Shown piece after piece: positions 1 through 52,845 of a stretch of 64,000 bases of DNA. This DNA comes from a virus. Below the pieces are notes generated by a model. The model did not search any database. It was given only the letters and a program-made list of their open reading frames with translations, and had not been told where the DNA came from. The translations under genes and the position numbers were made by a program. Each line of letters opens with the position of its first letter. The stretch's first letter is position 1. The stretch covers positions 1-64,000 of IMG/VR virus record IMGVR_UViG_3300042566_000599; one strand, written 5' to 3'.

Positions 1-783
1 CAACTTCTTAACCTGTGTTGTTTCGATGAATACTACGTCGTATAGACGACCGATTTCACCGAGCATGAAGTTACCTGGAGCAGCGTACTTTGTAACTTCG
101 ATGAACTCTGGGTTCGAACGAATGTCACGTGACTGCTTTGGGTGTACGAACTGTACGTATGTCTCACCTAAGCGAGGGATGTTCTTACCAGCAAGAGTAA
201 GAGCAGCGTCCTTAACAGCACCTGTAGTCAACTTGAAGTTGCCGTCTAGGTCTGAGAACTGTGTTGCAGCAGTTCCTTCGTTATACCAGTCGTTGACACC
301 CTGAAGTGCAGAGCGGTCGTAACCGAACACTGCAGAAGTTGCTGCAGAAAGTGTGTTACGTGCCTGAATATCTAGGTATTGTGCCATGTGACGGCCAAGA
401 AGACGTGAAGCAGAAGCCATTACGTCATCGAAGGATGCGTTTAGAAGAAGTTCAGAAACTGCTACTGCGTAGCCATGTTCTGCAACTGTAATTGCAATCT
501 GCTCTGCAGTAAGAGCGCTCGTTGTCATACGAACACCTTCTGTTAGAGGAGATGGGTCTACTGCGAAGTTCTTGTAACGAAGGAAGTTCACACGAAGACC
601 AGGAGCAACTCCTAGTTCAGTCTTCTTAACAGCAAACTGTTCAAAACGAAGAATTGGCATTGCCTGGAACAAGATTTCCTTGGACCAGATTGTCTGGATT
701 GCTTGATTCAGAGATGAGTTAGAGCCTGAATAAGCGGTAGGGGCGCTGGCGAGTTGACCAGTACCTGTAATTGCACTTGCCAT
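1..783 (-). CDS. Major capsid protein, N4-gp56-like (3' end cut by window)
   Basis: The reading frame is open from an ATG at 783 to the left edge (261 codons) and has no stop, so the C-terminus lies outside the window. The N-terminal half resembles the N4-gp56 family of major capsid proteins. It has a short polar leader, then the segment VRMTTSALTAEQIAITVAEH followed by YAVAVSELLL, and later FVHPKQSRDIRSNPEFIEV, a pattern typical of that family. It would form the icosahedral shell. The scaffold and portal genes lie directly upstream in transcription, as expected for a head module. The family call is from recognition of motifs, not from an alignment. Confidence 0.85.
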   Translation of the reverse strand, partial: MASAITGTGQLASAPTAYSGSNSSLNQAIQTIWSKEILFQAMPILRFEQFAVKKTELGVAPGLRVNFLRYKNFAVDPSPLTEGVRMTTSALTAEQIAITVAEHGYAVAVSELLLNASFDDVMASASRLLGRHMAQYLDIQARNTLSAATSAVFGYDRSALQGVNDWYNEGTAATQFSDLDGNFKLTTGAVKDAALTLAGKNIPRLGETYVQFVHPKQSRDIRSNPEFIEVTKYAAPGNFMLGEIGRLYDVVFIETTQVKKL

Positions 784-816: not shown

Positions 817-1605
817 TTAACCGAACAGTCCCTGACCACGATTGTTTGCTGCATTGCCAAGTAATTTGGCTCTTTGTTTCGCATAGTCTGCCAATGACAT
901 ATCCCTGATTGAATCAGGAGTTAACGATTGTGTGTCCGAATTGGTGTCGAGGGGTCCTGCGGCAGGTGCTGTTACGCGAGGTCCTGCCATTTGTGCTCGT
1001 GCAGACTGCATAGCCTGTTGAGCGGAATCGAGAATTCGAGCAGACTTTTCTACTAAAGTTGCGATGCTCTGCTCAATTGCATCTGGTGAATCACCTTCAA
1101 TTAAATCGATAAGTTCAGGAATGATGTTATTTCGTTCCTGTTCCAATCGAGATTGACGATAATTCATCAACTCTTGGAATTTGCGCTCTTGGTCTAAGAG
1201 TGCAATAGCACGTTCTCTTTCAAGACGTTCATTCTCTAGTTGAGAATGGAATTCTTGCTCCTTCTTTTTGAGAAGGTCTTTAAAGGACAGTTCGTTTTCT
1301 TCCTGTTCCTTCTTCAACTGTGCTGCACGGTTTTCCTCTTCAGCAATACGTGTTTGACGTTCTGCTTCACGAGTTTCCGCTTCCTCACGTTCTTTCTTAA
1401 GGGACGAGAGTTCTTCTTTCATCTTTTCAAGTTGTGGATACAACTTTGCCTTTTCTTGCTCACGAGCCTTTGCAATATCATCGGCTGTGTAAGCAGTAAA
1501 TGACGAATTTGCAGTCTGGGTTTCAGCCTGACTACTCATTGTTAAATTAACTGCAGACAGATTTGCATCTGTCATATCTACTTGGTTATCCATAGCAGTA
1601 TTCAC
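817..1605 (-). CDS. Capsid scaffold / head assembly protein
   Basis: A 262-residue, highly charged protein with a long predicted coiled coil from about residue 45 to 165, rich in Glu, Lys, Arg and Gln. A disordered N-terminus and a Pro/Ala-containing C-terminus flank it. Size, composition and position between portal and major capsid genes fit a phage scaffold protein, which acts as an internal template in the procapsid and is later removed. No protease motif is visible. I assign it by context and composition; scaffolds diverge too fast for motif recognition. Confidence 0.75.
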   Translation of the reverse strand: MNTAMDNQVDMTDANLSAVNLTMSSQAETQTANSSFTAYTADDIAKAREQEKAKLYPQLEKMKEELSSLKKEREEAETREAERQTRIAEEENRAAQLKKEQEENELSFKDLLKKKEQEFHSQLENERLERERAIALLDQERKFQELMNYRQSRLEQERNNIIPELIDLIEGDSPDAIEQSIATLVEKSARILDSAQQAMQSARAQMAGPRVTAPAAGPLDTNSDTQSLTPDSIRDMSLADYAKQRAKLLGNAANNRGQGLFG

Positions 1606-1727: not shown

Positions 1728-3464
1728 CTACTCTTTATCTACCGTTCGTCGTTGTGGAATCTTGGTTCCATAGGCTTGAGTAAGCAAGTCATTTCTAATG
1801 CCTGCTTCTGCTTGGTCCTCAATCATCTTTGCTTCTTGAACAGCGGGGTCTTCAACCTTTTCTGGGGTTGGAGCGCCTTCAATACCGTCACCCATAACAT
1901 CCCCATCCCCTAACTGCGTTGGTGCTAGTGGGACTGCGTTTGCGCCATCAGGTCCAGGCATCATTCCTGTTAAATCTTGAATTTGCTTCTGTATTTGAAC
2001 TCGAATAAGGGATAACGCACCGTCCGCCTTGGCATCTTCCATAAGTTCACGGCGAATTTCTTGTAGTTTCTCTTCAGGGAATTCCTCTCCTAGAGTACGA
2101 AGAGCGCCTTCCTTTGACTCAAGGCCCATACCAAGTTTGGTTTGAATTTCATTAAGCACAATAAGTTTGTCTAGAGGAAGAGGAGGTGGGAACTGTACGT
2201 AGTTCATGTACGAGATTGGGTCATTAGGGTCTAATCGGTCTAGTTGACCTGCCTTGATTGGGCCGTCCTCATCTGGGTTGTACAAGAATGTTTGCGGTTC
2301 TTTGATGACAAGGGTGCGAAGTGCAAGTTCATTGATTCGCTCAAGGCCCTTACCATACTGCGCTACCTTTTGTGAGTAGCGGTTCATCAGTGGTTGATAC
2401 TGAATAGACAGAGCAACACCTGATGTGTTTGAGATTGGTTGAACTTGTCCAAGCGCAGTCTCAGGAATATTCATCATTTCGTGCATTGAGCGTTTCAACA
2501 ACTCAAGGTATTTTAATGCGCCATCAATTCCTTGTGCACCACCTTCAAGGTTGAATACTTGGGCGTCTTTTGGAAGACCTCCCCAAACTTTCTTTGCACC
2601 TTTCTCAAGGTTAGAGGCTTTAGCACCAACGATAACTGTCACAGGAGAAGCGTGATAGTTAATGATGTCTGCGACATCGGTGCTGATTTCGTTATATGCA
2701 CGGTTGATAGTGATGATGTCATGTGCGTCCGAGAGACCCCAGGGTGAACCTGAAACAGGAACGTTAGGAATATGTACCACTGGAATAAGTCCAAGTGGAT
2801 TTGGACGTGAATCGATGAGTTCATCATTGATGTACTCTTCAATTACGTCATCAGTTAAAATTTCAGTGTAAGTAAACACTTGACGGGTACCCTCTAGAGA
2901 AGTTCCCCAAAAACGATACTTCTGTTTAAAGCGAAGTAGACGAGTCCTATCATGTGGGTGAAACTCAGGAAAACAAAATGAGGAGTTCATTGGCAGAATG
3001 CGAACACGTCCAGGATGGAACCTTCCAGCAGAATCTGTCCATGGCTCTTCGTATGCTACTTTAACAAACACATCGCCTGTAATGCCGCCTTGTTGTCCCA
3101 TTTCAAGTAAGACACGCATCTTGTCGTTATCTACGTCCCAGATACGCTCTAAACGGTCTGGAATAATGGCCTCAGTTGCTTTTGGCGAACGAAAGTGAAC
3201 ACCGCGACCAAAAACAAATCTTGCAAGGTAGTCATTAAACGCACGATAATAGTTCACTGCAATTTGCATTTCGCCTTGTTCACGACGATAACCCCAGTGA
3301 TGCCCTAAATACATTGCCCAGTTTAGAGAGTAACGGTTTAATCGAGGACCGTGAACCTCAAATTCTTCATCAGCAAGTTCTACAAGACCAAGTGGTGAAA
3401 TAGAAATGGTAAGGTCGGATGACGCTGCGCGGTATGACGGTGGCGTGAAATCAAGAAATGACAT
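1728..3464 (-). CDS. Portal protein
   Basis: A 578-residue protein with the features of a phage portal. It has an N-terminal MYLGHHW region, a long mixed domain, and the stretch MNIPETALGQVQPISNTSGV followed by ALSIQYQPLMNRY (about residues 345-380) that resembles the crown/stem part of portal proteins. The C-terminus is acidic and Pro-rich. The portal forms the dodecameric DNA entry ring to which terminase docks. Terminase lies just upstream and scaffold downstream. The start at 3464 overlaps the stop of the upstream gene by one base. Confidence 0.85.
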   Translation of the reverse strand: MSFLDFTPPSYRAASSDLTISISPLGLVELADEEFEVHGPRLNRYSLNWAMYLGHHWGYRREQGEMQIAVNYYRAFNDYLARFVFGRGVHFRSPKATEAIIPDRLERIWDVDNDKMRVLLEMGQQGGITGDVFVKVAYEEPWTDSAGRFHPGRVRILPMNSSFCFPEFHPHDRTRLLRFKQKYRFWGTSLEGTRQVFTYTEILTDDVIEEYINDELIDSRPNPLGLIPVVHIPNVPVSGSPWGLSDAHDIITINRAYNEISTDVADIINYHASPVTVIVGAKASNLEKGAKKVWGGLPKDAQVFNLEGGAQGIDGALKYLELLKRSMHEMMNIPETALGQVQPISNTSGVALSIQYQPLMNRYSQKVAQYGKGLERINELALRTLVIKEPQTFLYNPDEDGPIKAGQLDRLDPNDPISYMNYVQFPPPLPLDKLIVLNEIQTKLGMGLESKEGALRTLGEEFPEEKLQEIRRELMEDAKADGALSLIRVQIQKQIQDLTGMMPGPDGANAVPLAPTQLGDGDVMGDGIEGAPTPEKVEDPAVQEAKMIEDQAEAGIRNDLLTQAYGTKIPQRRTVDKE

Positions 3465-4274: not shown

Positions 4275-5852
4275 TTAACCAAAGAAAGGATTACTTGATG
4301 CAACAATTTCTGGCATAACGAGGTCCTGAGTAAGGGAGCAAGCGATAGACAAGGAGTCCACAAAGTCGTCATGAGCGTAGGATTCGTCAGGGGCGGCTAC
4401 AAGAAAATTAGGACCTTTGTATTGCACCTCTGCATCTACCATCTGTTGGTAGAACCGCTTCCACGTTCTTAGGCGCCTTGTCTTTGCATGAGAAGGCCAT
4501 GAAATCATTTTACGTTGGATTAAAGCCTGTAGGTGTTTCCAACGTTTTGACTGCTCGGATGGGCTTGATGTCAAAGATATAACTTCTGCTCTAGGCAAAA
4601 GAAGTTTTAGTCTTTGTGCAACAGCATCACCTACACCGTTAGCGTCTACGCCAACTGCAAGTACGTCATAGTTCTCAAGGAAGTTAACAATTTGATAATA
4701 CTGCTCTTCCCAGTCATCTCCCTGCATTTCAAGCCAATTGAGAATGCGATGGTCAAAATACCCAAACTCATCAGGCCTATCCCAGTCGACCCAAACAACA
4801 GTTACAACGGTGCTGTCTGTCTTACGAGCAGGGTCGATACCAACAACAACTGGAGTCTTGTGCCAAGACTTTACTAACTCTTGTGATGTGTCACCAAGTT
4901 CATCCATTACTGATGAGGTAACAAACATTCCACGCTCTAACAACCACTTACAGTTGTACGACATTTGAAATTCATCAGAGTCCTCACCAATACGCAACAT
5001 TTCTTTTCTAATAAACTTTTCATAGTTTGCATTAAACTTTGCTACATCTTTCCAATCCCATTGGAAATGGTTTTGACGAGAAGCACGACCTGTCTGTCGT
5101 CTACGGTTTAATTGAATAGCGCGATAGAAGTTGTTTTTACTAGTCGTTGGTGTGCCAGTCTTTACCATTGTTCCTGCGTAGTACGCCAACATAGGAGAGA
5201 TAGACTTAGAAACAACAAAGTCGTCGGCTTCTTGACACTCATCGATTATTACAAGATGAAAAGATTTAGATTCAATTTTTGCTCTTGGGTTTGCAGTCAT
5301 CATTGTGATAGTAGAACCCGATTTCTTTAATCGAATTTGCCTTGTAACACCTCCCACACGTGCGGCTGCATCATCAATTTCAGGGTCATCCATAATTTCT
5401 AAAGCACGCTCTGAACTTAAACGAGTAACAGTACGGCCAAATAACGTTTCAGCCTGAGATTCTGTAGGAGCAAATAAACCAACCCAAATACCGTCTTTAA
5501 ACTTTCCAAGTAAATCAGGATACAGTTTTGCAAGACGGGGAAGTAGAATCATCATAGTTGCTACAGTGTCTGCAACAGTTTCTGATTTACCAGACTGACG
5601 AGAAGCAAGAGCAGTGATTTCTTCACCATCATTAATGATGACGGATTCCATAATACGACGAGCAAGCGGTTTCTGGTAAGCGTGCAGGTCGTGTCCCACA
5701 AGTACTACGAGAAACTCAAGCATCTTGTCTATGAGTTTGTCTACAAACTGTTGCGATAATTCATCTAAGGGTTCATCAACAGACTCTTCTACTGGCTGCT
5801 CATCCTGTAGAAAAAACTCAGGATTGATTTCTTCAAACTTATCTTGTTCCAT
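4275..5852 (-). CDS. terL: Terminase large subunit
   Basis: The DNA-packaging motor. The ATPase domain shows a Walker A-type SRQSGKSE (about residues 86-93 counting from the GTG at 5858) and a Walker B with catalytic acid, LVIIDECQEADD. The RNase H-like nuclease domain begins VVVGIDPARKTDSTVV, followed by LAVGVDANGVG and a terminal DDFVDSLSIAC, which supply the metal-binding acids. About 525 residues is normal for the family. The ATG at 5852 is preferred; an in-frame GTG lies two codons upstream. No small subunit is recognisable upstream; one of the two unknown genes at 5.9-6.4 kb could fill that role. Confidence 0.95.
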   Translation of the reverse strand: MEQDKFEEINPEFFLQDEQPVEESVDEPLDELSQQFVDKLIDKMLEFLVVLVGHDLHAYQKPLARRIMESVIINDGEEITALASRQSGKSETVADTVATMMILLPRLAKLYPDLLGKFKDGIWVGLFAPTESQAETLFGRTVTRLSSERALEIMDDPEIDDAAARVGGVTRQIRLKKSGSTITMMTANPRAKIESKSFHLVIIDECQEADDFVVSKSISPMLAYYAGTMVKTGTPTTSKNNFYRAIQLNRRRQTGRASRQNHFQWDWKDVAKFNANYEKFIRKEMLRIGEDSDEFQMSYNCKWLLERGMFVTSSVMDELGDTSQELVKSWHKTPVVVGIDPARKTDSTVVTVVWVDWDRPDEFGYFDHRILNWLEMQGDDWEEQYYQIVNFLENYDVLAVGVDANGVGDAVAQRLKLLLPRAEVISLTSSPSEQSKRWKHLQALIQRKMISWPSHAKTRRLRTWKRFYQQMVDAEVQYKGPNFLVAAPDESYAHDDFVDSLSIACSLTQDLVMPEIVASSNPFFG

Positions 5853-5872
5853 ATGCACCCATTAAACAGCGT

Positions 5873-13595: not shown

Positions 13596-13727
13596 ATGAT
13601 AAGAGAATTTATAAAAGCATTTACTTGTAGGCACAAGACTTTTGAGAAGAGTTCATGTCCTTTTACAGGATATACCTACGAAATGTGTGTTTCCTGTGGA
13701 AAACGATTAAGCGCAATTAAGTCTTAA
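13596..13727 (+). CDS. 43-residue zinc-ribbon micro-gene on the opposite strand
   Basis: An ATG at 13596 with AAGGTG upstream opens a 43-codon frame encoding MIREFIKAFTCRHKTFEKSS, a Cys-Pro segment and YEMCVSCGKRLSAIKS. Cys and His spacing (C-x-H near residue 12, then C-x2-C) fits a zinc ribbon. It fills most of the gap between two minus-strand genes, and its stop codon interlocks with the endolysin stop. That precise fit, plus the motif, argues that it is real, although it stands alone on the plus strand. Confidence 0.6.
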   Translation: MIREFIKAFTCRHKTFEKSSCPFTGYTYEMCVSCGKRLSAIKS

Positions 13728-14299
13728 AGAGGACGTTTGCACTCGCTGCAAACTTTTGGTTCTGCAGACTGTGTTGTTGCAGGCTTCGATGCTCCTGCAC
13801 CTTTAAACTTTGGACGACCAAAGCCAACGATTGAAATCATAACACCAGCCTTGTTCTTCTTGTAGGCACGCAGTTGCTTGCAAACTTCTCCGCCATTTCG
13901 TTGACTTCCAGATTTCTTCGAAGATGTGTTTCCTTCGATACACCAAACGGTTCCATCTTCGTTGTCTTTGATAACAATTCCAACGTGAGAAATTCTATCG
14001 ACACCGTCTGCGGGGAAATCAAAATAGGCTATATCTCCTGGTTCTGGGTCTGCAACATCTCCGTCAATCCATGAGCCAGCCTTTTTAAATGCCTGTGCAC
14101 CACTTGGAGTGTAAACAGTGTTAGGCACCTTTACGCCACTTTCGGAGGCCACCCAATTTACGAAACTTCCGCACCATGGTTGGAAGTTTGCTTTCATAAA
14201 AGCGCCATATTTAGTTTCGTTATCTTTAGGGCCTTCAATGACCCCAATCTCTGCTGTAGCAACTTCAATAAGTCGTTTTGCTGTTCCTTGTTCGGCCAT
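13724..14299 (-). CDS. Endolysin with CHAP domain
   Basis: Cell-wall hydrolase that cleaves peptidoglycan at the end of infection. From the ATG at 14299 (TAATG junction with the previous gene) the protein has 191 residues. The catalytic Cys is in QPWCGSFVNW (Cys about 43) and the His in RISHVGIVI (about 105). The acidic/polar third residue is in WCIEGNTS (about 122-124). A short Lys-rich linker leads to a C-terminal VCSECKRPL zinc-type tail. No separate wall-binding domain is evident. It follows a two-helix membrane gene, the classic holin-endolysin order. Confidence 0.9.
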   Translation of the reverse strand: MAEQGTAKRLIEVATAEIGVIEGPKDNETKYGAFMKANFQPWCGSFVNWVASESGVKVPNTVYTPSGAQAFKKAGSWIDGDVADPEPGDIAYFDFPADGVDRISHVGIVIKDNEDGTVWCIEGNTSSKKSGSQRNGGEVCKQLRAYKKNKAGVMISIVGFGRPKFKGAGASKPATTQSAEPKVCSECKRPL

Positions 14300-14709
14300 T
14301 AGTCCTTGTCCCAATCTGTATCAACTGGTTGTTCTTCTGGCATTGCGCCATTAGGCTTTGCTGCAAGACGTGCTGCGGTAGCATCAATCTCTGCTTCTAA
14401 TTTTTTATCTTCTAGTGTGTTCTTTGCATCAACTTCTTTATTCGCTATCTGTGCTGCCATTACATCTTTTGCACCGCTCTGACCAATCAATAGACCAGCA
14501 AGAGTTCCTGTAATAAAGGTTGCAACGCTTCCTAGAACGTTAAAAAACATCTTGTCGTTCTCAGATTGTGCTCCGATTGGTTGAGTAACAAACAGAAGGC
14601 CGTAGAGGATTCCTACAGCAGTGAGGAACAAGATAGACCCTAATGTAATTCCTAAAATAAACTTAAGGCGAGCATCAAGGTCTTGTGGTGTAAGTTTTTC
14701 TTTAGCCAT
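14299..14709 (-). CDS. Two-helix membrane protein, probable holin
   Basis: A 136-residue protein with a first membrane helix at about residues 15-40 (LGITLGSILFLTAVGILYGL), a second at about 58-80 (NVLGSVATFITGTLAGLLIG), and a charged coiled-coil tail ending WDKD. It lies directly before the endolysin with a one-base stop/start overlap. Holin or holin partner is the natural inference. Confidence 0.7.
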   Translation of the reverse strand: MAKEKLTPQDLDARLKFILGITLGSILFLTAVGILYGLLFVTQPIGAQSENDKMFFNVLGSVATFITGTLAGLLIGQSGAKDVMAAQIANKEVDAKNTLEDKKLEAEIDATAARLAAKPNGAMPEEQPVDTDWDKD

Positions 14710-14918: not shown

Positions 14919-15182
14919 TCAGTCCTGTTGAATTCCCATACGTTCTAAATACAATTCTTTTTCGCTCATGAGGTACTCCTCAATCCGCTTGTACTGCTCC
15001 TGAGCCTTCTCTTCAGTCGCCTTTACCTGCTCCTCTGTTAACTCACCCATAGCATCCTTGAAGGACTCTACGGCTAGGTCCAGGTCAGTCTTAGCAAGGG
15101 CGGCACGTAGTTGTGCCTGTTTCCATATAAACTCTGCGTGTTCGATTTTTCTTTGCTTTCTCTTATCTTGTGTTTTAGACAT
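14919..15182 (-). CDS. Short coiled-coil protein, unknown
   Basis: Start at the ATG 15182 (AGAGG upstream); an earlier ATG at 15206 lies deeper in the preceding gene. The 87-residue product is almost entirely helical and rich in Glu, Lys and Gln. It probably forms a dimeric coiled coil. No family recognised. Confidence 0.6.
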   Translation of the reverse strand: MSKTQDKRKQRKIEHAEFIWKQAQLRAALAKTDLDLAVESFKDAMGELTEEQVKATEEKAQEQYKRIEEYLMSEKELYLERMGIQQD

Positions 15183-15681
15183 GAATGACCTCTGGTATCG
15201 AGTCATTAAACTCTGTTAATGGGATTCTCCATGAACCCTCTGGTGTGTATTTCCATTCGTCTCGCTGTACATCTTCCATTCTTATCCATCCATAAATCTC
15301 AACTTCAGAATAGTAATCTCTGTCAAGCACTCTTGCACCAACAAGAAGGTTTCCAGGCTTTATATCTTTTGGAAACACAGGAATCTCATCACGTGTTCGT
15401 ATACTTTTAACTTCAATATTTGAACCGACGTCAGGAATGTGTTGACGATATATGTGTTCTTCATTTGGATAGAACGGAAATGTCAATGGCATTTTATAGA
15501 GTTTTGCAACTGCATACTCTGCAACGATAGTGCGAACATTTGCTGCAATCTCTGGTTCTAATTTGCTTTTGTTATCTCCTGCATAGTTAGGGCGGTCAAT
15601 TGAACCCCACTTCATCATCCATCGGTTTAATGCGATGTCTGCACAGGCTCTTACTTCTTCTTTACTTAGGCTAACAATCAT
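15175..15681 (-). CDS. PD-(D/E)XK nuclease-like protein
   Basis: A 168-residue protein whose central IPDVGSNIEVKSIRTR (Asp about 84, Glu 90, Lys 92) fits the D-x(n)-E-x-K metal-binding core of the PD-(D/E)XK superfamily. An upstream helix with Glu (VAEYAVAKLY, Glu about 55) completes the usual layout. Substrate unknown. It may degrade or process DNA; lack of restriction-specificity regions makes a classical restriction enzyme unlikely. Confidence 0.65.
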   Translation of the reverse strand: MIVSLSKEEVRACADIALNRWMMKWGSIDRPNYAGDNKSKLEPEIAANVRTIVAEYAVAKLYKMPLTFPFYPNEEHIYRQHIPDVGSNIEVKSIRTRDEIPVFPKDIKPGNLLVGARVLDRDYYSEVEIYGWIRMEDVQRDEWKYTPEGSWRIPLTEFNDSIPEVIHV

Positions 15682-15760: not shown

Positions 15761-16249
15761 TTATTGGATGTCTATGGTGCGTGGCTTCTTATGCTCAGGT
15801 ATTTCTCGCTCTAGACGAATGGTCAAAATACCATCCTTCATGTGAGCAGAGATAACTTTTACATCATCGGCTAATGCAAACTTTTGCTCAAAATTACGAG
15901 CGGCTATGCCTTTATGGACATAATCTGCTGCATCGTCGTCTTTTTTACCTGTAACGGTAAGGCTGTTGTCTTGAAATGTGATTTCAATGTCAGATTTAGT
16001 AAACCCAGCGGCCGCTATTTCGATGAGGTAAGTCTCCTCATCATCGACCTGGACGATGTTATATGGAGGATAAGTTGACTTATTCTCTTTTCGTAGTTGT
16101 TCAAGAAGTTCAAAATGTCGTTCAAAACCGACAGTCCACGAACTTAAGAAGGGGGTTAGAAGTTGAAAGGGGTCCGTAGGCCTCTCAACTTTAGTAGACT
16201 CATAATGAGGGTATTTAGCAAACTGTTTGCCTTTTTGCATAGGGTACAT
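15761..16249 (-). CDS. Hsp20 / alpha-crystallin small heat-shock protein
   Basis: A 162-residue protein with the alpha-crystallin domain from about residue 58 to 155: YLIEIAAAGFTKSDIEITFQ, LTVTGKK, GIAARNFEQKFALADDVKV and DGILTIRLEREIPE. The N-terminal arm is Pro-rich. It acts as an ATP-independent holdase. Small heat-shock genes are well known in T4-like and cyanobacterial phages and may help virion protein folding. Confidence 0.92.
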   Translation of the reverse strand: MYPMQKGKQFAKYPHYESTKVERPTDPFQLLTPFLSSWTVGFERHFELLEQLRKENKSTYPPYNIVQVDDEETYLIEIAAAGFTKSDIEITFQDNSLTVTGKKDDDAADYVHKGIAARNFEQKFALADDVKVISAHMKDGILTIRLEREIPEHKKPRTIDIQ

Positions 16250-16337: not shown

Positions 16338-16889
16338 TTACTTTTTGTGTTGAAGTTCCTTTTGAAAAGGTCCAGATGTGTTTACATCTATTTTTTCAGC
16401 AACAGTCATTGCTTTTTCTGGCTTCACGCCCGCGTACAGGGCTCCAAGAGCATATGGGGAGCCAGACCCAACACCATAAAACCCTACATCGGACATACAC
16501 ACTGATAAATCATCAGCAATATCAAATATCTGACCGTTGACAGCAATTAGCAAGTTAAACCGCATTTCACTTGCTTTTCCTTCAGATTTTCCTTCGTTAA
16601 AATCATAGCCATTGTTTTCTAAGCAGAGGCGTAGTGATGGCATCAATTTAGCGATAACAAAGTGATACGTGTCTTTTCTGTCTTTAGCAGCCATTGCAGG
16701 TGGAACCCATAGGTGTTGCGCAATATCGCAAGGTGCAACCTCTCCAGAACCAGCAACTAAGTACTCTCCTACAAGACTGATTTTTTTCATGGCTGGATGA
16801 TTACTGCGACGTCCACCATCAAGTGTTACTTGATTGTCTGCCATAAGCAGGCAGTGGTCTTCATACTGGACACCAATAATCGTAGTCAT
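16338..16889 (-). CDS. HslV/proteasome-beta-like Ntn peptidase
   Basis: A 183-residue protein starting MTTIIGVQYEDHCLLMADNQ. After Met removal the Thr would be the N-terminal nucleophile. Counting from it, Asp17 (MADNQ) and a Lys at 34-35 (MKKISLVG) sit where HslV has Asp17 and Lys33, allowing a two-residue insertion. A Gly/Ser turn follows (AGSGEV). So the catalytic set looks intact. No ATPase partner (HslU) is encoded nearby; it would need a host unfoldase or act on unfolded peptides. It follows the lysis-nuclease group and precedes Hsp20, hinting at a protein quality pair. Confidence 0.8.
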   Translation of the reverse strand: MTTIIGVQYEDHCLLMADNQVTLDGGRRSNHPAMKKISLVGEYLVAGSGEVAPCDIAQHLWVPPAMAAKDRKDTYHFVIAKLMPSLRLCLENNGYDFNEGKSEGKASEMRFNLLIAVNGQIFDIADDLSVCMSDVGFYGVGSGSPYALGALYAGVKPEKAMTVAEKIDVNTSGPFQKELQHKK

Positions 16890-16984: not shown

Positions 16985-17680
16985 CTAATTATATGACTTC
17001 TTATGCCAGAAGGTGTCGCGGTACCACCCGCTTACGCGACTAAGAGACCGTCTACCGTTGTCCAATGCTTCCTTAGTAAGTCCTTTTGAGTGCTCAAGAA
17101 CCCAAGACTCTCTCTTAAATGGGATTACCTGTGCCATAGGAGTTCCTTGAGGAATTATGCCTGAAAACCCCTTTTGTAAAAAGAAGGGGATGCTTCCACG
17201 GTTTAATGCAAATTGTAAATCTACAACACCCGTCAGCGTATAGAAGGGTAAATCTAGCCTGTTAAACGGATGAGTAAATAGGAGACTGTAACCTTTTGGA
17301 AGTTGCAATGTTATTGGAGTGACCCAAGCAAATGCTGTCTTTTCAAACGAATCTGGGATTGGAATTCCTTGACTAATTTCGGGAGTTCGTTTATGGACCA
17401 TAGGAGTTTCAGTATCTTTCCAAACAATTGTTGAAGGAAAGCCCTCACCATTATTTTCCACAAAAATGTCCATAGGTAAAGTCAAGTAATAACCGACGGT
17501 AAGTGCGTCAAAAAATGGCATGCATATTTTAAAGGTCTTTCTAAACTCACTTGTTATCTGCCTATTCACCCATGGTGATTCGTCCTTATACCATTTAGGC
17601 ACGAGTGTTTTTGCTGGTACAACGCTTTGAGGTATGTGAGACTCAAAATTATCAAACAAAATCTTTTTTGCATTTTTCAT
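16985..17680 (-). CDS. DUF6065-like protein, paralogue 1
   Basis: A 231-residue protein with an N-terminal PKWYKDESPW motif and a C-terminal pattern QGTPMAQVIPFKRESW, preceded by a hydrophobic, Phe/Pro-rich beta region (PITLQLPKGYSLLFTHPFNR). The same layout recurs in the genes at 37.5-38.3 and 54.8-55.6 kb, so the phage carries three members. I believe the family is DUF6065, from memory. Function unknown; it has the look of a double-stranded beta-helix (cupin-like) fold but no metal triad that I can confirm. Confidence 0.65.
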   Translation of the reverse strand: MKNAKKILFDNFESHIPQSVVPAKTLVPKWYKDESPWVNRQITSEFRKTFKICMPFFDALTVGYYLTLPMDIFVENNGEGFPSTIVWKDTETPMVHKRTPEISQGIPIPDSFEKTAFAWVTPITLQLPKGYSLLFTHPFNRLDLPFYTLTGVVDLQFALNRGSIPFFLQKGFSGIIPQGTPMAQVIPFKRESWVLEHSKGLTKEALDNGRRSLSRVSGWYRDTFWHKKSYN

Positions 17681-18554: not shown

Positions 18555-18653
18555 CTACTTCTTCTCACAGATACATTTGCAGGTGTCTATAGTACAGCAC
18601 CCATACAACATCTCGTGAAAGCAAAGACGGCACTCTTCTTTAGAAACGCTCAC
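18555..18653 (-). CDS. 32-residue cysteine-rich peptide
   Basis: A GTG at 18653 overlaps the stop of the preceding ART-like gene (GTGA). The peptide has seven cysteines in 32 residues (ECRLCFHEM, then YGCCTIDTCKCICEKK). It could bind one or two zinc ions, metallothionein-style. The tight junction on the 5' side and the Cys pattern support it; no ribosome-binding site is independent of the coupling. Confidence 0.5.
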   Translation of the reverse strand: MSVSKEECRLCFHEMLYGCCTIDTCKCICEKK

Positions 18654-18967
18654 TTATGCTCTCCCAGTACCATGAAACCGTGAGGAGATGAGAAGAACCG
18701 CTCGTGCTCTACATTTCCTGATTCTATTTTTACATTGTCACTAACTGGTGTAACTCTATAGACCTTTACTGGTCTCTTCTCCGCCCCTATAGGCAGTTTT
18801 GTTTCGCCAAAGAAACGTGCTTGACCAGGGTCACTGGTAGCCCACGCACGTGCGACAGGTCCTTCGCCTTCAGTTACTGCAGGCAAGATGAACCCGCCAC
18901 TTACATCTGCACGAGTTCCGTGGTACATAGGACCAAACTGTTGCTCAGAGAGATTACGACGAGTCAT
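18650..18967 (-). CDS. ADP-ribosyltransferase-like protein (Arr-type), copy 1
   Basis: From the ATG at 18967 (ATGA with the upstream stop) a 105-residue protein reads MTRRNLSEQQFGPMYHGTRA. The MYHGT motif, AWATSDPGQARFFG and KVYRVTPVSDNV follow in the order seen in Arr-type rifampin ADP-ribosyltransferases, where His of HGT and a central Tyr/Trp region bind NAD. The central Tyr is replaced by Trp here. It ends with FFSSPHGFMVLGEH. It may modify a host protein or small molecule using NAD, but activity is not shown by sequence alone. Confidence 0.65.
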   Translation of the reverse strand: MTRRNLSEQQFGPMYHGTRADVSGGFILPAVTEGEGPVARAWATSDPGQARFFGETKLPIGAEKRPVKVYRVTPVSDNVKIESGNVEHERFFSSPHGFMVLGEHK

Positions 18968-19125
18968 ATGCTCCACCATCCATTAGGAGAGCCGTTTGGA
19001 TTATCAATCTTATGTTGCTCATGAGCATCGTTAACTGTGCGCCAATTAATCTCATGAGTAGGTTTGCCACATAATGGGCATGGGTCAACGCCAGTTAACT
19101 TATAGACGTGCTCGCATGTGTTCAT
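18964..19125 (-). CDS. 53-residue zinc-ribbon protein
   Basis: ATG at 19125 overlaps the stop of the upstream ART-like gene (TAATG), and its own stop overlaps the next start. The product reads MNTCEHVYKLTGVDPCPLCG, then KPTHEINWRTVNDAHEQHKI and a Gly/Asn/Trp end. Cys/His at 4, 6, 16 and 19 suit a zinc knuckle. It is clearly part of the array operon; role unknown. Confidence 0.65.
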   Translation of the reverse strand: MNTCEHVYKLTGVDPCPLCGKPTHEINWRTVNDAHEQHKIDNPNGSPNGWWSI

Positions 19126-19511
19126 TAGATACCTCTAAAGTAAGCGCTGTTTGTAATTGGGTCTCTACCTGCTCGTGCCTCAATATACGGGTTTAATACT
19201 GATGCCACATGTTTTTTTACAATAAAACCTATATTACTAGAACGTGCTCCAGGAAAGTCTTTACTTGATGCATCAGAGTGTAAGTTAGGGGCAAGTGGTT
19301 CTACTTCGTAAATATTACCGTGGTGTGGATGCTTACCCACAGAGTCAAAACCTAATCCGCTGCTAATGCGGTCTTGAGTGTGTTTCTCTGCATCTGCCAA
19401 ACTAGGCGTTGCCCAGGCAGCGGCACCGCTATGGCGAGGCTTTACAAGGTCACCTGGTTTTAGTGTTTCGATAGTGCCGTGAAATAACTGACCTGATAGT
19501 GGAGCGCTCAT
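19125..19511 (-). CDS. ADP-ribosyltransferase-like protein (Arr-type), copy 2
   Basis: A 128-residue protein starting MSAPLSGQLFHGTIETLKPG. HGT (His 11), AAAWATPSLADAEKHTQD and GNIYEVEPLAPN fit the Arr-like order. As in copy 1, Trp stands where Arr has its catalytic Tyr. It shares the first 20 residues almost exactly with copy 3, so the two are recent duplicates or under common constraint. It ends with a long tail (EARAGRDPITNSAYFRGI). Coupled to both neighbours by overlapping codons. Confidence 0.7.
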   Translation of the reverse strand: MSAPLSGQLFHGTIETLKPGDLVKPRHSGAAAWATPSLADAEKHTQDRISSGLGFDSVGKHPHHGNIYEVEPLAPNLHSDASSKDFPGARSSNIGFIVKKHVASVLNPYIEARAGRDPITNSAYFRGI

Positions 19512-19834
19512 CCGACATCGTTCCTTGGTACAGAGAAGTCGTGAAGTCCTATGACTTTAAAACCCTTTTGACTTCTATAAGTTTGTTTTGTTATGGTGTC
19601 TTTGTTGGTCAAGGTCTTATCGTTTTCTAATGGGGCTACTTTGTAAACCATGCCAAAGAGATGACCCTTACGTGATAACCGCTGGTCACTTGAGGCATAG
19701 ATATGTGCCGATAATTCGTGCGTAGTCGCGTAAGCGCCAGGACCCATTGCTGCATCAGACGGTTTTACTATATCTCCAACTTTTAAAGTCTCTGTAGTTC
19801 CGTGAAATAGTTGTTTAGATAAAGGTGCACTCAT
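19508..19834 (-). CDS. ADP-ribosyltransferase-like protein (Arr-type), copy 3
   Basis: A 108-residue protein starting MSAPLSKQLFHGTTETLKVG. His 11 of HGT and Tyr 35 (GAYATTHELSAHIYASS) correspond to the His and Tyr of the Arr NAD site. GMVYKVAPLEND and FKVIGLHDF complete the fold pattern. It is the most Arr-like of the array. Arr enzymes inactivate rifamycins; here a phage-host function (effector or nucleotide-linked modification) seems more likely, but this is inference. Confidence 0.72.
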   Translation of the reverse strand: MSAPLSKQLFHGTTETLKVGDIVKPSDAAMGPGAYATTHELSAHIYASSDQRLSRKGHLFGMVYKVAPLENDKTLTNKDTITKQTYRSQKGFKVIGLHDFSVPRNDVG

Positions 19835-20274
19835 GCCTTCTTCTCCCTAGGTGGGTTAAAGGTGCGCTTGCGAGACTTAACTGCCTCTCCTGATTTGCGT
19901 AGGTTGGTCACTCCAGTAATTTTAACAGGAGCGCCTTCTTTTACCATGACTTCTTTTTCTTCATGAGGGTCTTGGCTACTAAAGTTTGCAAAACCACCTT
20001 GTCGCATTTTTTCCGTGTTTGTCTCTACAGAAGACATAGGAACTTGGGCATGCACTACGTGTGCGTAGTCAGTACGCCAGTGTGGTGTGAGAGCACGGCT
20101 GTTAGGGCTATTGGCAAACTCTTTAGCCACCTGTGAGTCTGCACTCCAGTGAGTACCTAGGTTGTTCATGTCCAACTTGTATTGTGACGACTTGCCACCT
20201 TTAGGATAATGAGGGTACGAGGTGTTGATGCCACGATGTGCTTCAAAGAATAACTCGTTAGATAGAACGCTCAC
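19831..20274 (-). CDS. ADP-ribosyltransferase-like protein (R-S-E type)
   Basis: A 147-residue protein starting MSVLSNELFFEAHRGINTSY. It has the order HRG..., LGTHWSADSQVAKEFANSP, VVHAQVPMSSVE and EEKEVMVKEGAPVKITGV. That resembles R-S-E type ART domains: Arg in HRG, Ser in the WSAD region, and an E-x-E in EEKEV. It differs from its three Arr-type neighbours, so two ART lineages sit side by side. The tail is Lys/Arg-rich. Activity and target are unknown. Confidence 0.65.
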   Translation of the reverse strand: MSVLSNELFFEAHRGINTSYPHYPKGGKSSQYKLDMNNLGTHWSADSQVAKEFANSPNSRALTPHWRTDYAHVVHAQVPMSSVETNTEKMRQGGFANFSSQDPHEEKEVMVKEGAPVKITGVTNLRKSGEAVKSRKRTFNPPREKKA

Positions 20275-21428: not shown

Positions 21429-22184
21429 CTATAGACCCATCTCGCGACGCTTTTGAGTAGCCGATATAGCCTCAATACTATCTTCAAGTTTTACCTGCTC
21501 AATCTTGTATCCGACATCGCGACCATACACGATGTTAGTAATGTTAGGCATGCGCAACACCATTGCACCCCTCATTGCTGGGTCTTCCTCAATAAAGGAC
21601 TTGACTTGAGAGAACGTGAGTGGGTCCTTCTCACTTGTTCCTTGAGTATTTCGAACACCTAGTACAACCTGCGGAGTTCTTTTTTCTGCTTCGTTATAGA
21701 GAGCGTGATGACCTTCATGCCATGGCTGATAGCGTCCAAGCATAAGAGTCGTTGGCTTCTTCCAATCATGTAACCCAAAGACTCTGATGACATCTTCTAC
21801 CTCTTGCTCAACTGTACGCCCATCAAGAATTACTAAATCAACATTGGTTGGGTTTTCCCATATCTTGTTGGTGTCTTCGTAACGGCCAGCCTCAATACGA
21901 TTAACCCAGATAAGGATGTCGGGCTTTCCAAATGCTTCACGAGTCTCATGAGTAGGACATATGAAATCTACAATAACTGTACGCCCCTGAGCATGTAGCA
22001 ATCGTGCAAGGGCGCCTAACCTTCTTGATTGCTCAATGCGGTCTTCAGGAGTAAATCCTAGGTCTTTGTTTAAATCGGCACGGACTTCATCTGCATTCAA
22101 GTGGATGGCATCAATGTGCTCCATCAATGTCTTTGCAAGAACTGTCTTACCTGAACCTGGAAGTCCAATAATCTGAATAATCAT
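21429..22184 (-). CDS. APS kinase-like / nucleotidylyltransferase fusion
   Basis: A 251-residue two-domain protein. The N-terminal part (1-125) looks like adenylylsulfate kinase CysC: P-loop IGLPGSGKT (6-14), then HLNADEVRADLNKDLGFTPE, RLLHAQGRTVIVDFICPT and HETREAFG. CysC makes PAPS from APS. The C-terminal part (145-251) is a nucleotidylyltransferase with LMLGRYQPWHEGHHAL (HxGH at 156-159), closer to NMNAT/cytidylyltransferases than to ATP sulfurylase. The CysC signature DGD is altered to NAD, so a different kinase substrate is possible. The sulfotransferase two genes upstream supports a PAPS role. Confidence 0.75.
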   Translation of the reverse strand: MIIQIIGLPGSGKTVLAKTLMEHIDAIHLNADEVRADLNKDLGFTPEDRIEQSRRLGALARLLHAQGRTVIVDFICPTHETREAFGKPDILIWVNRIEAGRYEDTNKIWENPTNVDLVILDGRTVEQEVEDVIRVFGLHDWKKPTTLMLGRYQPWHEGHHALYNEAEKRTPQVVLGVRNTQGTSEKDPLTFSQVKSFIEEDPAMRGAMVLRMPNITNIVYGRDVGYKIEQVKLEDSIEAISATQKRREMGL

Positions 22185-26340: not shown

Positions 26341-27723
26341 ATGACAACAAATTACGGCGTACTACTCGTTTCACAACCTGCTGATGTAAATGTAACTCGA
26401 CAGGTATTTATCGCAAACATAAACGGACAGACTGTTGTTCGTTCTCGATTCACAAATGGTAAGCAAGGAAAGCAGAACGCTTGGATAACTGAACCATTCA
26501 GTTATGAAAGTGGTGAGCCACTTATCGGTGACCCAGTTGCAATTCCTGTATCACAGAATGATGTTGAAGACTTCAGAGAAAACGGATTCCCACGAGTTCT
26601 GATTCAGAAACTAATTCGTAAGCACTCACTTGGTAATCAAGACATCACAGAAGAGGCGATAGCAGTTGCCGATTCAGTCTTCAGCGCAGTAGATAACGAC
26701 CCTGCTTCGCTTGCTCAGTATTACACCGACAATCGCGGTCAGCGTTCAGTAAAGGATTCAATCGTGGCAAACAATTCAGTTATTCGTATCAAGCCAGTCG
26801 CTTCTAACGAGTTAGTTAGTGAGCGTTCGTTGTATCTACCTAGTGTCGGTGAGTTCTCGCACTACATCTCACGAAAGTTTGCTGGTGATGTTGATGAACT
26901 CGCTATGTACCAATTCGCATTGAAGAACAAGATGAATGTTCTTCTTTATGGAGACGCTGGAACTGGAAAGACAACATCTTCAATGTGGGTATCTTCATTG
27001 TTAGGTCTTCCTTACTTTGCGATTCCTTCCAACTCTGCACTTGATTACACACAAATTGTTGGTGGCTATGTACCAAACGCCAATGGTTCTTTGTCATGGA
27101 GTGACGGCGCAGTAACTCGCTTAGTTCGTAATGGTGGAGTTCTTCTTATCGGTGAAGTAAATACACTTGCTAAGAATGTTCAACAATTCCTAATGCCACT
27201 ACTTGATTACCGCCGTTCAATTACTGTCATGGAGAATGGCAACGAAGTTATCAAGGCGCACGACAACTTGTTAATTATCGCTGACATGAATCCAAATTAT
27301 CGTGGCACTCAACTACTTAATGAAGCATGGAAAGACCGCTTCGAGATTAAGTTGAACTTCGATTATGACCGCAAGATTGAAGAGAAGATTCTCAAATCAG
27401 AATCACTCTTGGAACTTGCTTACGGCATGAGGTCGCGTTCTCGTGGTGCGAGTAACTACTCAAACACAGATAGCACCGCAATCTTCGATACTCCTGTTTC
27501 AACTCGTATCCTCAAAACATTTGAGAAGTTAGCAACAGAGTTGTCATTCGACTTTGCTTGTGAGGTCTTCATAAATAACTTTGATGAAAACGAACGACCA
27601 GCAGTAAAGATGTTGTTGGAATCAAATGCTTACAATCTCAAAGAAGATTTAGGTATTACTGATTCATCTTCTGTCACACGCGACAGAATCATTGAAGAAC
27701 ACTTAACTCGTCTTGATTCCTAG
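26341..27723 (+). CDS. MoxR/CobS-like AAA+ ATPase
   Basis: A 460-residue protein. The AAA+ domain begins at about residue 190: Walker A NVLLYGDAGTGKTTSS (about 204-211), the MoxR-type IPSNSALDYTQIVGGYVP, Walker B GGVLLIGEVN (Glu but no Asp, D to G), sensor LLIIADMNPNYRG and an arginine-finger region EAWKDRFEI. An N-terminal domain of about 180 residues looks beta-rich. MoxR/CobS ATPases work with VWA partners to remodel proteins or insert metal. The VWA gene follows after 11 bases. CobS homologues are known in cyanophages. Confidence 0.85.
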   Translation: MTTNYGVLLVSQPADVNVTRQVFIANINGQTVVRSRFTNGKQGKQNAWITEPFSYESGEPLIGDPVAIPVSQNDVEDFRENGFPRVLIQKLIRKHSLGNQDITEEAIAVADSVFSAVDNDPASLAQYYTDNRGQRSVKDSIVANNSVIRIKPVASNELVSERSLYLPSVGEFSHYISRKFAGDVDELAMYQFALKNKMNVLLYGDAGTGKTTSSMWVSSLLGLPYFAIPSNSALDYTQIVGGYVPNANGSLSWSDGAVTRLVRNGGVLLIGEVNTLAKNVQQFLMPLLDYRRSITVMENGNEVIKAHDNLLIIADMNPNYRGTQLLNEAWKDRFEIKLNFDYDRKIEEKILKSESLLELAYGMRSRSRGASNYSNTDSTAIFDTPVSTRILKTFEKLATELSFDFACEVFINNFDENERPAVKMLLESNAYNLKEDLGITDSSSVTRDRIIEEHLTRLDS

Positions 27724-27734
27724 AAGGGAATGTC

Positions 27735-29657
27735 ATGTCACAACCAAAACTAACTGAGTTCGTTAATAGAGCGACTCAGATTCAACAGGAAGAAGAGCAG
27801 AACCGCGCTCGTGTCGAGCGACTAACTCGTTACTTCTCTCGTGTTAATTCAGCACTTACATTTCGTGAAATAAAAGTAACTGTTGAATCATCAGAACTAA
27901 ATGCACCTGCTTGGTCAGGTGCTAGTGACATCACACTTAATTCACGACTTATCAACGACTTTAACAAAGGCGTTAATGTTGCGAATCTTCGTGGTCTTAA
28001 CTTTCACGAGTTATCACACATTCTCTATACACCGCGTACAGGTTCAGAGATTGTCACATGGGTCAATGAACAGGGTTATCGCCAAGCGTTTAATGCACTA
28101 GAAGACCAGCGCATTGAAACTCTATTTACTTCACGATTCCCTTCAACTGTTGATTGGTTCGTAGTAACTGTTCTGACTTACTTTGTTAATGATGAACAAC
28201 AATTCGCAAACTCTTATCCGTTGCTTCGTGGTCGTAAGTATCTGCCACTAGAAGTGCGTACTAAGTCGCGTGAGTTGTTTATACACAAAGATAAGTTAGA
28301 TGAACTGTGTTCAATCATTGACGAATACAGAACACTTATTTACCCACTTGATACAGAGCGTGGCAAAGTTCTTGTTGAACAATTCCACAAACTCATTGAC
28401 TCACTACCTCAGCATGACAACGGAAGCGAAAGTGGAAGTGGCGAAAGTGGTGAAGGCAGTAATGAAGTTGTTGATTACAACGACATGGCTGAGTGGGAGA
28501 AAGAGATACTAAAGAACGCCACACCTGCTGACGGCACTATAAAGAACACTAAGACAGTTCTTAATTGCCCATTTGGTCACGAAGAGCGACCAACTGAAGG
28601 TATCGAACCAACAGTTGCTTCACGACCACAACCATTGAAACAACAGAAGCGCGATAGTGAAAGAGCAAAGCAATTAGATAGTGTGATTGAAGATGAAGCC
28701 GATTCATTCTTTGATTCACAATTTGATTCTGATTCACAATCTAACTCTGAGTCATTCGGTCAATCTGCTGGTACTGAAACTTCTCTTTCAGAACTTCTCA
28801 ATACCGCTATTACTGATGTTATGGATAAGCACGAAGTTGCTAACGAAATTAACAACATCATTCGTGTAATGAAGGGTCTTCCTTCTTTATCTTCTAACAA
28901 CCTAGAAGAACCTGAACCTGCTCGTTACCACAATCTAATTCCCGACAGTAGGACACTCTCTGCTTCAGTTTCATTCGCTCGTGAGTTAGAGCGATTGAAA
29001 GCAAAGTTTGACCCTGCTTGGGATAAGTACGAATCTCGTGGCAAATTAAATGCTTCTCGATTCATGCGTGGTGATGATTTAGATACAGTCTTTGATTCAT
29101 GGAATGAAGGTCGTGAAGATGTTACTGAGATTGAAGCAGTAATCATTCTTGATAATTCAGGTTCTATGAATGGAGAAAAAGCAACTCAGTCTTATCGTGC
29201 TATGTATGCAGTTAAATACGCACTCGACAAGATTGGTGCTAATTGTTCTGTTCTTACTTTCAACACACAAACTCGAACTCTTTATCACGCAACTGAAAAG
29301 GCAAACAATTCAGTTCGTGATAGTGGAACAACAGGTGGCACAGAAGCCGAGTATGCAGTTCGTTATGCAACTAAGTTACTTGCTGAATCAACCAAGCCTG
29401 TAAAACTATTCTTTGCAATTACTGACGGAGAATGGTCTGACACAAAGGTTTGTGATGAAGAGATTAAGAAACTCTCTCGTGCTGGCGTGCTAACCGCGTT
29501 TGCATACATTCCTGAATCACATGAAGAAGTTGTGCTGACTCACGAGAAGGCGCACTACTCAGATGTTGCTTCAGTAATTCGTAATCCGTTTGACCTTGTT
29601 GGTATGGCTCGAATAATCGTGCAAAACGCGATTAGTCGCAGACTTACTAACGCTTAG
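27735..29657 (+). CDS. VWA-domain protein, CobT-like partner of the ATPase
   Basis: A 640-residue protein. A metalloprotease-like HELSH occurs at 91-95 within FHELSHILYTPRTG. The middle is acidic, Ser/Gln-rich and probably flexible. A C-terminal VWA domain has the MIDAS motif DNSGSM (Asp 473), then Thr in TGGTEAE and Asp in ITDGEWSD. The layout (helical N-domain, acidic middle, C-terminal VWA) is that of cobaltochelatase CobT and related MoxR partners. Whether it serves cobalamin synthesis or a chaperone-like remodelling job is open. Confidence 0.85.
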   Translation: MSQPKLTEFVNRATQIQQEEEQNRARVERLTRYFSRVNSALTFREIKVTVESSELNAPAWSGASDITLNSRLINDFNKGVNVANLRGLNFHELSHILYTPRTGSEIVTWVNEQGYRQAFNALEDQRIETLFTSRFPSTVDWFVVTVLTYFVNDEQQFANSYPLLRGRKYLPLEVRTKSRELFIHKDKLDELCSIIDEYRTLIYPLDTERGKVLVEQFHKLIDSLPQHDNGSESGSGESGEGSNEVVDYNDMAEWEKEILKNATPADGTIKNTKTVLNCPFGHEERPTEGIEPTVASRPQPLKQQKRDSERAKQLDSVIEDEADSFFDSQFDSDSQSNSESFGQSAGTETSLSELLNTAITDVMDKHEVANEINNIIRVMKGLPSLSSNNLEEPEPARYHNLIPDSRTLSASVSFARELERLKAKFDPAWDKYESRGKLNASRFMRGDDLDTVFDSWNEGREDVTEIEAVIILDNSGSMNGEKATQSYRAMYAVKYALDKIGANCSVLTFNTQTRTLYHATEKANNSVRDSGTTGGTEAEYAVRYATKLLAESTKPVKLFFAITDGEWSDTKVCDEEIKKLSRAGVLTAFAYIPESHEEVVLTHEKAHYSDVASVIRNPFDLVGMARIIVQNAISRRLTNA

Positions 29658-33438: not shown

Positions 33439-33727
33439 CATAGTTAAAGGACTTACTCTTGCAAATGAGTTTCTAAAGATTCTTCGTGCGTTTAAGGTGG
33501 AACAAGCACATGAGAATCCAATTCCGTTTGAGGTAACTCATTCATTAGCAAACGCTCAATTAAATCTCGTAATGGAGAAATACAATTCAGACCCCGAAGA
33601 TTTAATTTGGGGTCTTGTGCAGGTTGTTGAGATGTTCCTAAAACTAACTGACACAGACCCCGAAGATTTATCGGGCGCACTAGACCAATTCATTCGCTTC
33701 ATTGAAGAACAGGAAAACGACAAATGA
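33419..33727 (+). CDS. Helical protein, unknown
   Basis: A 102-residue, mostly helical acidic protein. An AAGGAG site precedes the ATG, which lies inside the end of the previous gene. Contains two similar 'DPEDL' repeats (SDPEDLIWGL, TDPEDLSGAL). No family recognised. Confidence 0.6.
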   Translation: MNQRQTDIVKGLTLANEFLKILRAFKVEQAHENPIPFEVTHSLANAQLNLVMEKYNSDPEDLIWGLVQVVEMFLKLTDTDPEDLSGALDQFIRFIEEQENDK

Positions 33728-34059
33728 AAAAAGTAAAAGTAAAAACACTTCCTTCATCACAACCAAAGAGAGCGACTAACAATCCTGTCTTCAATCTCAA
33801 AGTGCCAACACCACGCGACATTGACCAAACTCCATGTCAAAAGAATGACCCTGAGATTTGGTTTCCTAGTGGAGAGAACCTTCCTGAAGACACCGAGAAG
33901 ATAAAAACTGCTAAATCACTATGCGCTCAATGCCACGAAACAACTAAGTGCCTTTCATTCGCATTATCGAATCGGATTCGTTATGGGATTTGGGGTGGCA
34001 CTACTGAATCAGAACGACAGACACTTATTCGTAGAGCAGAACGGAGTAAAACTAAATGA
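33724..34059 (+). CDS. WhiB-family regulator, copy 1
   Basis: A 111-residue protein with the four WhiB cysteines (38, 67, 70, 76: C-x28-C-x2-C-x5-C) that hold a 4Fe-4S cluster, then the turn GIWGG (88-92) and a basic ESERQTLIRRAER helix. WhiB proteins bind the sigma-factor region of RNA polymerase and occur only in Actinobacteria and their phages. In phages they can shut down host genes or block superinfection. Coupled to neighbours by ATGA. Confidence 0.93.
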   Translation: MKKVKVKTLPSSQPKRATNNPVFNLKVPTPRDIDQTPCQKNDPEIWFPSGENLPEDTEKIKTAKSLCAQCHETTKCLSFALSNRIRYGIWGGTTESERQTLIRRAERSKTK

Positions 34060-52528: not shown

Positions 52529-52845
52529 TACACATCCTTACTAAATATAAACTCTTCTAAGGTCATTTTCTTTTTGTATTTTTTTTGCCACTTTCGTACT
52601 AAAGCGTTCCTTTCTCGATGAGAGAGTCCTCCCCAAATTCCATGAGGCTCGTCTCTAGAGACTGCGTCCCATAAACATGCGTTTTTAACTGGACAGTGAG
52701 TTTTTCCGTTCTCACCAAAACAAAAAGCCTTTGCTTTTTCAGCAATGACTTTGTACTGCTCCTTATCTCGTGGTGGATAAAAGAGGTCAGTATCTTCTCC
52801 TGAGCATTTAGCCTGATATCTCCAGGCGTACTCTGGTTCTTCCAT
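52528..52845 (-). CDS. WhiB-family regulator, copy 2, with unusual Cys spacing
   Basis: A 105-residue protein with Cys 14, 42, 51 and 57, PHGIWGGLSHRERN and a basic helix (RKWQKKYKKK). The WhiB fold is clear, but Cys 42 and 51 are eight residues apart where the family has two (C-x8-C-x5-C). This could change cluster stability or ligand. It is in the recombination operon, unlike copy 1, which is in the early block. Confidence 0.88.
   Translation of the reverse strand: MEEPEYAWRYQAKCSGEDTDLFYPPRDKEQYKVIAEKAKAFCFGENGKTHCPVKNACLWDAVSRDEPHGIWGGLSHRERNALVRKWQKKYKKKMTLEEFIFSKDV

Follow-up and report, generated by a model that had tools for sequence, protein, structure and literature searches.

Proteasome-like threonine peptidases of an apparently unnamed group-I lineage occupy fixed late-gene places in freshwater actinophages

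Given a gene for a proteasome-like peptidase in the late block of a virus, and no gene for HslU beside it, we wondered to which family of proteasome homologues such a protein belongs, whether an ATPase serves it, and what it might cut. The gene lies in the first 64 kb (here called the window) of a 96,345-bp IMG/VR viral record. The bare observation of an HslV-like phage protein without HslU is not new, since such proteins have already been described: a paper on Salmonella jumbo phages notes HslV without HslU (PMC7823757), and the PPH and AAH families described by Fuchs, Alva, and Lupas in 2021 came with no AAA+ partners and no informative context (PMC8665760). In the literature that we searched, we found no description of the actinophage lineage reported below, of its core status, of its slot between an endolysin and the small protein g95 with in-place replacement, or of its linkage to the portal gene in 75 of 75 loci.

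The peptidase gene (Table 1) encodes 183 aa from an ATG start, with a purine-rich, RBS-like stretch on its 5' side. The product passes the Pfam cutoff for PF00227 (Proteasome; 25 bits against 22.4), as the single match to that profile in the whole record, and has a full-length match to phrog_1040, "peptidase HslV family" (E value, 2.1e-25). The initial Met is followed by Thr, and the Lys of the putative active site, residue 36 of the ORF and 35 of the mature protein, aligns with K33 of HslV. T2, D18, and K36 are invariant among 47 homologues of 59 to 90% identity, and they are likewise invariant in 39/39 rows after alignment of 38 members of a portal-linked sister lineage (see below). Where Gly47 of the oxyanion hole is expected, the protein has an A-G-S-G stretch whose register is uncertain; G47 is invariant in the window lineage and G49 in both lineages. 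The pairwise dN/dS of the homologues (0.024 to 0.074) indicates that the protein is under selection, and a homologue with a stop three codons ahead of the usual end (L034) loses the tail alone. Judged by these residues, the protein is most simply read as a proteasome-like N-terminal-nucleophile threonine peptidase with an intact catalytic site. This agrees with the initial annotation, which had called it phage-borne and HslV-like, on a stretch that is indeed a piece of a viral record, and had described its Thr, Asp17, and Lys as kept.

Table 1. Coordinates of the peptidase gene and of other features of the window
Feature	Position	Strand	Remarks
Group-I HslV/BPH-like threonine peptidase	16338..16889	-	Thr1=T2, Asp17=D18, Lys33-equivalent=K36, pore loop ~93-110
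Hsp20 small heat-shock protein	15761..16249	-	Pfam 7e-20, phrog_432 1e-40; next downstream, 89-bp gap
168-aa late-block protein, DVGSNIEVK PD-(D/E)XK-like motif	15175..15681	-	phrog_18407 weak; motif by eye
g95, small Lys/Glu-rich protein, probably coiled-coil	14919..15206	-	
CHAP endolysin	13724..14314	-	
Terminase large subunit (TerL)	4275..5858	-	
Portal protein	1728..3464	-	
Scaffold-like coiled-coil protein, portal-MCP interval	817..1605	-	Assigned by position and sequence character
MCP, N-terminal part	1..783	-	Continued at other record end; without delta-like N-terminal domain
AAA_5 (MoxR/CobS-like) ATPase	26341..27723	+	Only candidate AAA+ partner seen
VWA/CobT-like protein	27735..29657	+	Paired with AAA_5 ATPase
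WhiB-like regulator	33724..34059	+	Host marker
Second WhiB-like domain	52600..52824	-	Host marker

The AlphaFold2 model of the monomer (47-row alignment; pLDDT, 89.4; pTM, 0.87) has the complete topology of a proteasome beta subunit, with helices H1 to H4 and without an extra C-terminal helix. Helix H2 spans residues 68 to 92 (25 residues), and from it a charged, low-confidence loop of about 18 aa leads to the next strand. Foldseek searches with this model returned BPH first (TM, 0.71), followed by HslV and 20S beta subunits (probability, 1.00 for all three), and a sequence search of solved structures gave two BPH proteins as the best matches.

We assign the virus to the actinophages by its WhiB genes, the evidence from which an actinobacterial host can be claimed, as it had been at the outset. 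WhiB serves as an actinophage marker (PMC10202952); two such domains are found in the record and at least one in all 11 other records tested, and the sole control genome to give a signal was that of a Corynebacterium. Within the phage collection, OX376641 is the closest record, with a peptidase homologue of 40% identity; its strain name, LanE43-AprF5, identifies it as one of the two cultured phages that PMC10202952 describes for Planktophila, a freshwater actinobacterium. The homologues in both of these, LanE43AprE7 and AprF5, are ~40% identical to the window peptidase. The MCP gene is split by the record ends (window positions 1-783 and L020:15874-16344), so that the record, whose IMG/VR class is not circular, probably represents a permuted, nearly complete genome. 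A tyrosine integrase gene (35558-36835, +) suggests a temperate or formerly temperate phage, and an attachment-site search aimed at the host found no tRNA fragment near it. Further genes on the minus strand encode a queuine tRNA-ribosyltransferase-like protein (phrog_887; 40422-41927), an APS-kinase-like P-loop kinase apparently fused to a cytidylyltransferase-like domain (phrog_10255; 21429-22184), and a sulfotransferase-family protein (Pfam, 1e-20; no PHROG match; 22459-23172), which is unusual for a phage.

The genes for endolysin, TerL, portal, scaffold-like protein, and MCP lie on the same strand as the peptidase gene, in keeping with its proposed position in a late block, and the Hsp20 gene is directly downstream, as had also been pointed out. 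As a constant partner, Hsp20 can be rejected: it is present in 3 of the 19 related records searched, all in the close clade. At least 551 IMG/VR stretches encode relatives of the peptidase query alignment, and the commonest order in the relatives that we fetched is endolysin-peptidase-g95. Where the flank sufficed, the endolysin gene lies 33 to 639 bp upstream of the peptidase gene in 48 of 72 related loci (mostly 33 to 181 bp), and in 53 of 70 loci a g95 homologue lies no more than 2.5 kb downstream. Within the clade to which the window belongs, the peptidase is followed by Hsp20, and the endolysin is farther downstream. Together with the presence of the peptidase in 9/9 related records of at least 86 kb, these gene orders mark it, as far as genomes can tell, as a core late gene of this freshwater actinophage group. 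Two of these nine records, with a TerL 86 to 89% identical to that of the window, hold in the endolysin-g95 slot a homologue with 29 to 31% identity (L423:4927-5499 and L424:7770-8345). Here, a divergent homologue appears to have replaced the window-type peptidase, or the reverse, and a peptidase of ~30% identity in the same slot suggests that what this place calls for is some proteasome-like peptidase and not one particular sequence.

Several other features of this region deserve mention. Scanning the late block for promoters yielded fewer hits than scanning shuffled sequences. Most relatives encode the 168-aa protein, whose DVGSNIEVK motif suggests a PD-(D/E)XK nuclease fold, close to the peptidase, on one strand or the other. 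One of two phrog_7084 (DUF6065-like) paralogues (16985-17680, -) immediately precedes the peptidase gene; the other (L020:3874-4587, -) sits beside tail genes. Homologues of a row of small ORFs at 18650-20274 (-) recur near the peptidase in many relatives, and two ORFs within it (19125-19511 and 19508-19834, -) show weak matches to rifampin ADP-ribosyltransferase (Arr) with a common FHGT motif. A 761-aa protein with long Pro-Thr-Glu-rich repeats (10445-12730, -), possibly a surface or adhesion protein, keeps its late-block position in relatives. In an unrelated phage, Salmonella phage Ent1 (Jerseyvirus), an HslV-family gene is directly upstream of two holin genes and an endolysin gene.

A different place is occupied in the sister lineage, whose sister relation to the window lineage has moderate tree support (74/79). 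In the Planktophila phages, TerL and portal are followed by the peptidase, further genes, the scaffold-like protein, and the MCP. We fetched 80 related loci, and in all 75 that include upstream sequence the portal gene directly precedes the peptidase gene, in 74 of them at a distance of 6 to 19 bp. The slot behind the portal gene is where many phages keep the prohead protease. In Planktophila phage F5, the fourth gene after the peptidase encodes a 1711-aa protein (L021:21470-26605) that is a candidate substrate, and a gene of similar size recurs near the same place in relatives. Taken together, abundant freshwater actinophages seem to keep a peptidase of this group-I lineage as a core late gene whose neighbors, either the portal gene or the endolysin and g95 genes, are strongly conserved, and such fixed places make its job testable. 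Since homologues exist in cultured Planktophila phages, the function of a phage proteasome homologue could be approached by proteomics of virions and infected cells.

What, then, might this job be? With confidence that is about evenly divided, we propose that the protein is a ring peptidase that works without an unfoldase in the late phase, where it carries out general proteolysis or clips particular phage proteins. The host Met-aminopeptidase would take off Met1 and expose Thr1, and the subunits would then assemble into a small ring or a double ring of the HslV or BPH kind. With no unfoldase dedicated to it, this ring would cut unfolded or flexible polypeptides that pass the charged, mobile pore loop. 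It would be made with the other late genes and act late in infection, either in general proteolysis or in the clipping of particular phage proteins during assembly. The fold, the catalytic site, purifying selection, the host marker, the fixed late position, the absence of HslU/ClpX-type genes, and the exchange for a divergent homologue in the slot come from the data presented here; ring assembly, independence from ATP, timing of expression, and substrates we infer. Perhaps g95 acts as a dedicated partner or is itself a substrate, in which case the function would be specific rather than general. An ATP-dependent mode may also exist, given the constant AAA_5/VWA pair discussed below.

Of the other readings, the one that places the peptidase in the virion deserves the most attention, although we consider it somewhat doubtful: the peptidase would cut scaffold, portal-proximal, or internal virion proteins in head assembly, in the genomic place of a prohead protease. 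Processing of virion proteins had been suggested initially, on the grounds that no prohead protease is visible in the window. The window-lineage genomes tested gave no match to an S78 or ClpP-type protease, and searches of the rest of the record for these two types uncovered no dedicated prohead protease outside the window. However, this argument is weak, because homologous capsids are built by phages that have no classical annotated protease directly between portal and MCP. Streptomyces phage FlowerPower and Bacillus phage Pascal have homologous MCPs, are not among the peptidase hits, and carry no such gene behind the portal gene; in Pascal, one gene only separates portal from MCP, and in FlowerPower gp11, annotated as "peptidase," sits in this interval. 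The MCP has no delta-like domain, and the MCP N termini are collinear across the phages with homologous capsids, which also speaks against a maturation role. What does lend support to the idea is the sister lineage, cultured Planktophila phages included, with its gene directly behind that for the portal at every one of the 75 loci, and the MCPs of both lineages belong to phrog_1357. In the window lineage, by contrast, the peptidase is encoded in the lysis block and not beside the portal, and the portal, scaffold-like, and MCP genes of the window phage are consecutive, with no protease gene among them. Moreover, DSL-LC01 carries both the peptidase and an S78 match, and the jumbo phage pSal-SNUABM-04 has HslV plus prohead proteases (PMC7823757). 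Membership of the peptidase itself in the S78 or ClpP-like prohead protease families was rejected, since only proteasome-type profiles match it, and a literature search found no paper on virion proteomics of HslV-bearing phages.

An extended version of this idea, to which we give a rather low probability, is that freshwater actinophages have taken a proteasome-type ring peptidase into service for morphogenesis or late assembly, with its gene directly behind that for the portal in the one lineage and within the lysis block in the other. To our knowledge, no Ntn-hydrolase has previously been implicated in virion maturation; if the idea were true, the recruited protease would be the first.

We regard a dedicated ATP-dependent protease as improbable. 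A search for HslU/ClpX-type ATPases (AAA_2) in the record itself and in eight related records gave nothing above the cutoff, while 14/14 control genomes gave a signal. The original statement that no unfoldase gene is seen therefore holds for this type, but has to be qualified by the AAA_5 (CobS/MoxR-like) ATPase and VWA (CobT-like) adaptor encoded at 26341-29657, which could build an ATP-dependent protease with the peptidase. The AAA_5 gene is present in 10/10 related phage records tested, as well as in DSL-LC01 and Pumpernickel, both carriers of peptidase relatives. Yet the pair is on the other strand, in a transcription unit of its own 10 kb from the peptidase gene, and the ATPase C terminus (...EEHLTRLDS) has no HbYX or HslU-like tail. 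Gordonia and Listeria phages absent from the named peptidase hits encode relatives of AAA_5 as well, and five proteobacterial phages have the peptidase without AAA_5. AAA_5 is thus not established as an obligate partner. The closest relatives of the AAA_5/VWA pair are found in Gordonia and Brevibacterium phages.

We attach a similarly small likelihood to a role outside proteolysis proper, in which the same fold would serve a specific amide-bond enzyme, either a connectase-like ligase or a peptide/conjugate hydrolase. Connectase, from the same family, sets a precedent for the fold as a ligase, and the solved BPH is inactive on standard substrates; against this, the peptidase model has all four ring-contact helices (H1 to H4), whereas the monomeric connectase has no H1 and H2 and carries an insertion. 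Finally, use of the host proteasome ATPase, which had been suggested early on and would suit an actinobacterial host as assigned by WhiB, is very improbable, since the mycobacterial-type ATPases (Mpa/ARC) dock on alpha subunits. No alpha subunit is present here; the protein is a beta-like homologue of group I that matches BPH over the full length and 20S beta subunits only weakly and, for the most part, partially.

Apart from what the peptidase does, there is the question of where it belongs among known proteasome homologues. The phage collection contains 137 records that match the peptidase at an E value of 0.01. When genome contigs were scanned with the peptidase alignment, no cellular relative came up; in a second scan of actinobacterial genomes, picked by a 16S pattern, 4 of 396 matched, and the one strong match led to AAH. 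In trees, the window lineage forms a clade of its own (95 to 99% support), with no settled position among AAH, PPH, and BPH. It lies outside AAH and BPH, and its length and helix H2 set it apart from PPH, for which reasons we regard it as a further group-I lineage of actinophages, apparently without a name so far.

The comparison with each known family supports the same picture. BPH (5ovs/5ovt/5ovu) is the best solved match by both sequence (1e-12 with a profile) and fold. The solved protein showed no proteolysis in standard assays and is set apart from HslV by its long pore loop and by the absence of an unfoldase (PMC5777263). A long charged pore loop and no known unfoldase are found for the phage peptidase too; however, identity to BPH is 22 to 24%, the BPH loop is highly acidic where that of the phage is Lys/Glu mixed, and the BPH pair of T. 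denitrificans and C. metallidurans, whose rows came from HMMER alignments, separates in trees with 98 to 99% support. With HslV, the peptidase shares the fold, the Thr1 exposed after Met, Asp17, and Lys33, but it has no HslU and a longer pore loop, and its scores against the NCBIfam models (22.1 against a cutoff of 137 bits and 21.3 against 157.75) reject HslV proper. It is also far below the NCBI cutoffs for archaeal and bacterial beta subunits (bacterial beta, 13.9 against 191.9 bits), which, with no alpha subunit present, rejects an actinobacterial 20S beta subunit.

AAH resembles the window protein as a group-I type with helix H2 that occurs in Streptomyces and phages, and we recovered AAH-type sequences from Streptomyces, Rhizobium, and phages of Firmicutes and Gammaproteobacteria. 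The AAH rows, so labeled from their taxonomic spread, carry an F-T-S-S-F-R-M-G-Q-like motif that the phage peptidase does not have, and they are monophyletic (99 to 100% support), with the window protein outside; a sister relation between the two is not rejected (p-AU, 0.3 to 0.37). PPH is phage-borne as well, and its C-terminal half, like that of the window protein, has GSGxxxALGAL-like and D..T.G motifs, but its members have ~140 aa and no H2 (PMC8665760), as opposed to 183 aa and an H2 of 25 residues. The 2021 survey called PPH the first true viral member and listed no actinophage with AAH (PMC8665760). The annotated members of phrog_1040, lastly, have the same fold and catalytic residues and no HslU alongside. 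Those examined belong mostly to phages of Proteobacteria, Firmicutes, and others, where the gene is often located in regions for nucleotide metabolism or accessory functions, whereas the window lineage resides in actinophages and is fixed in the late block.
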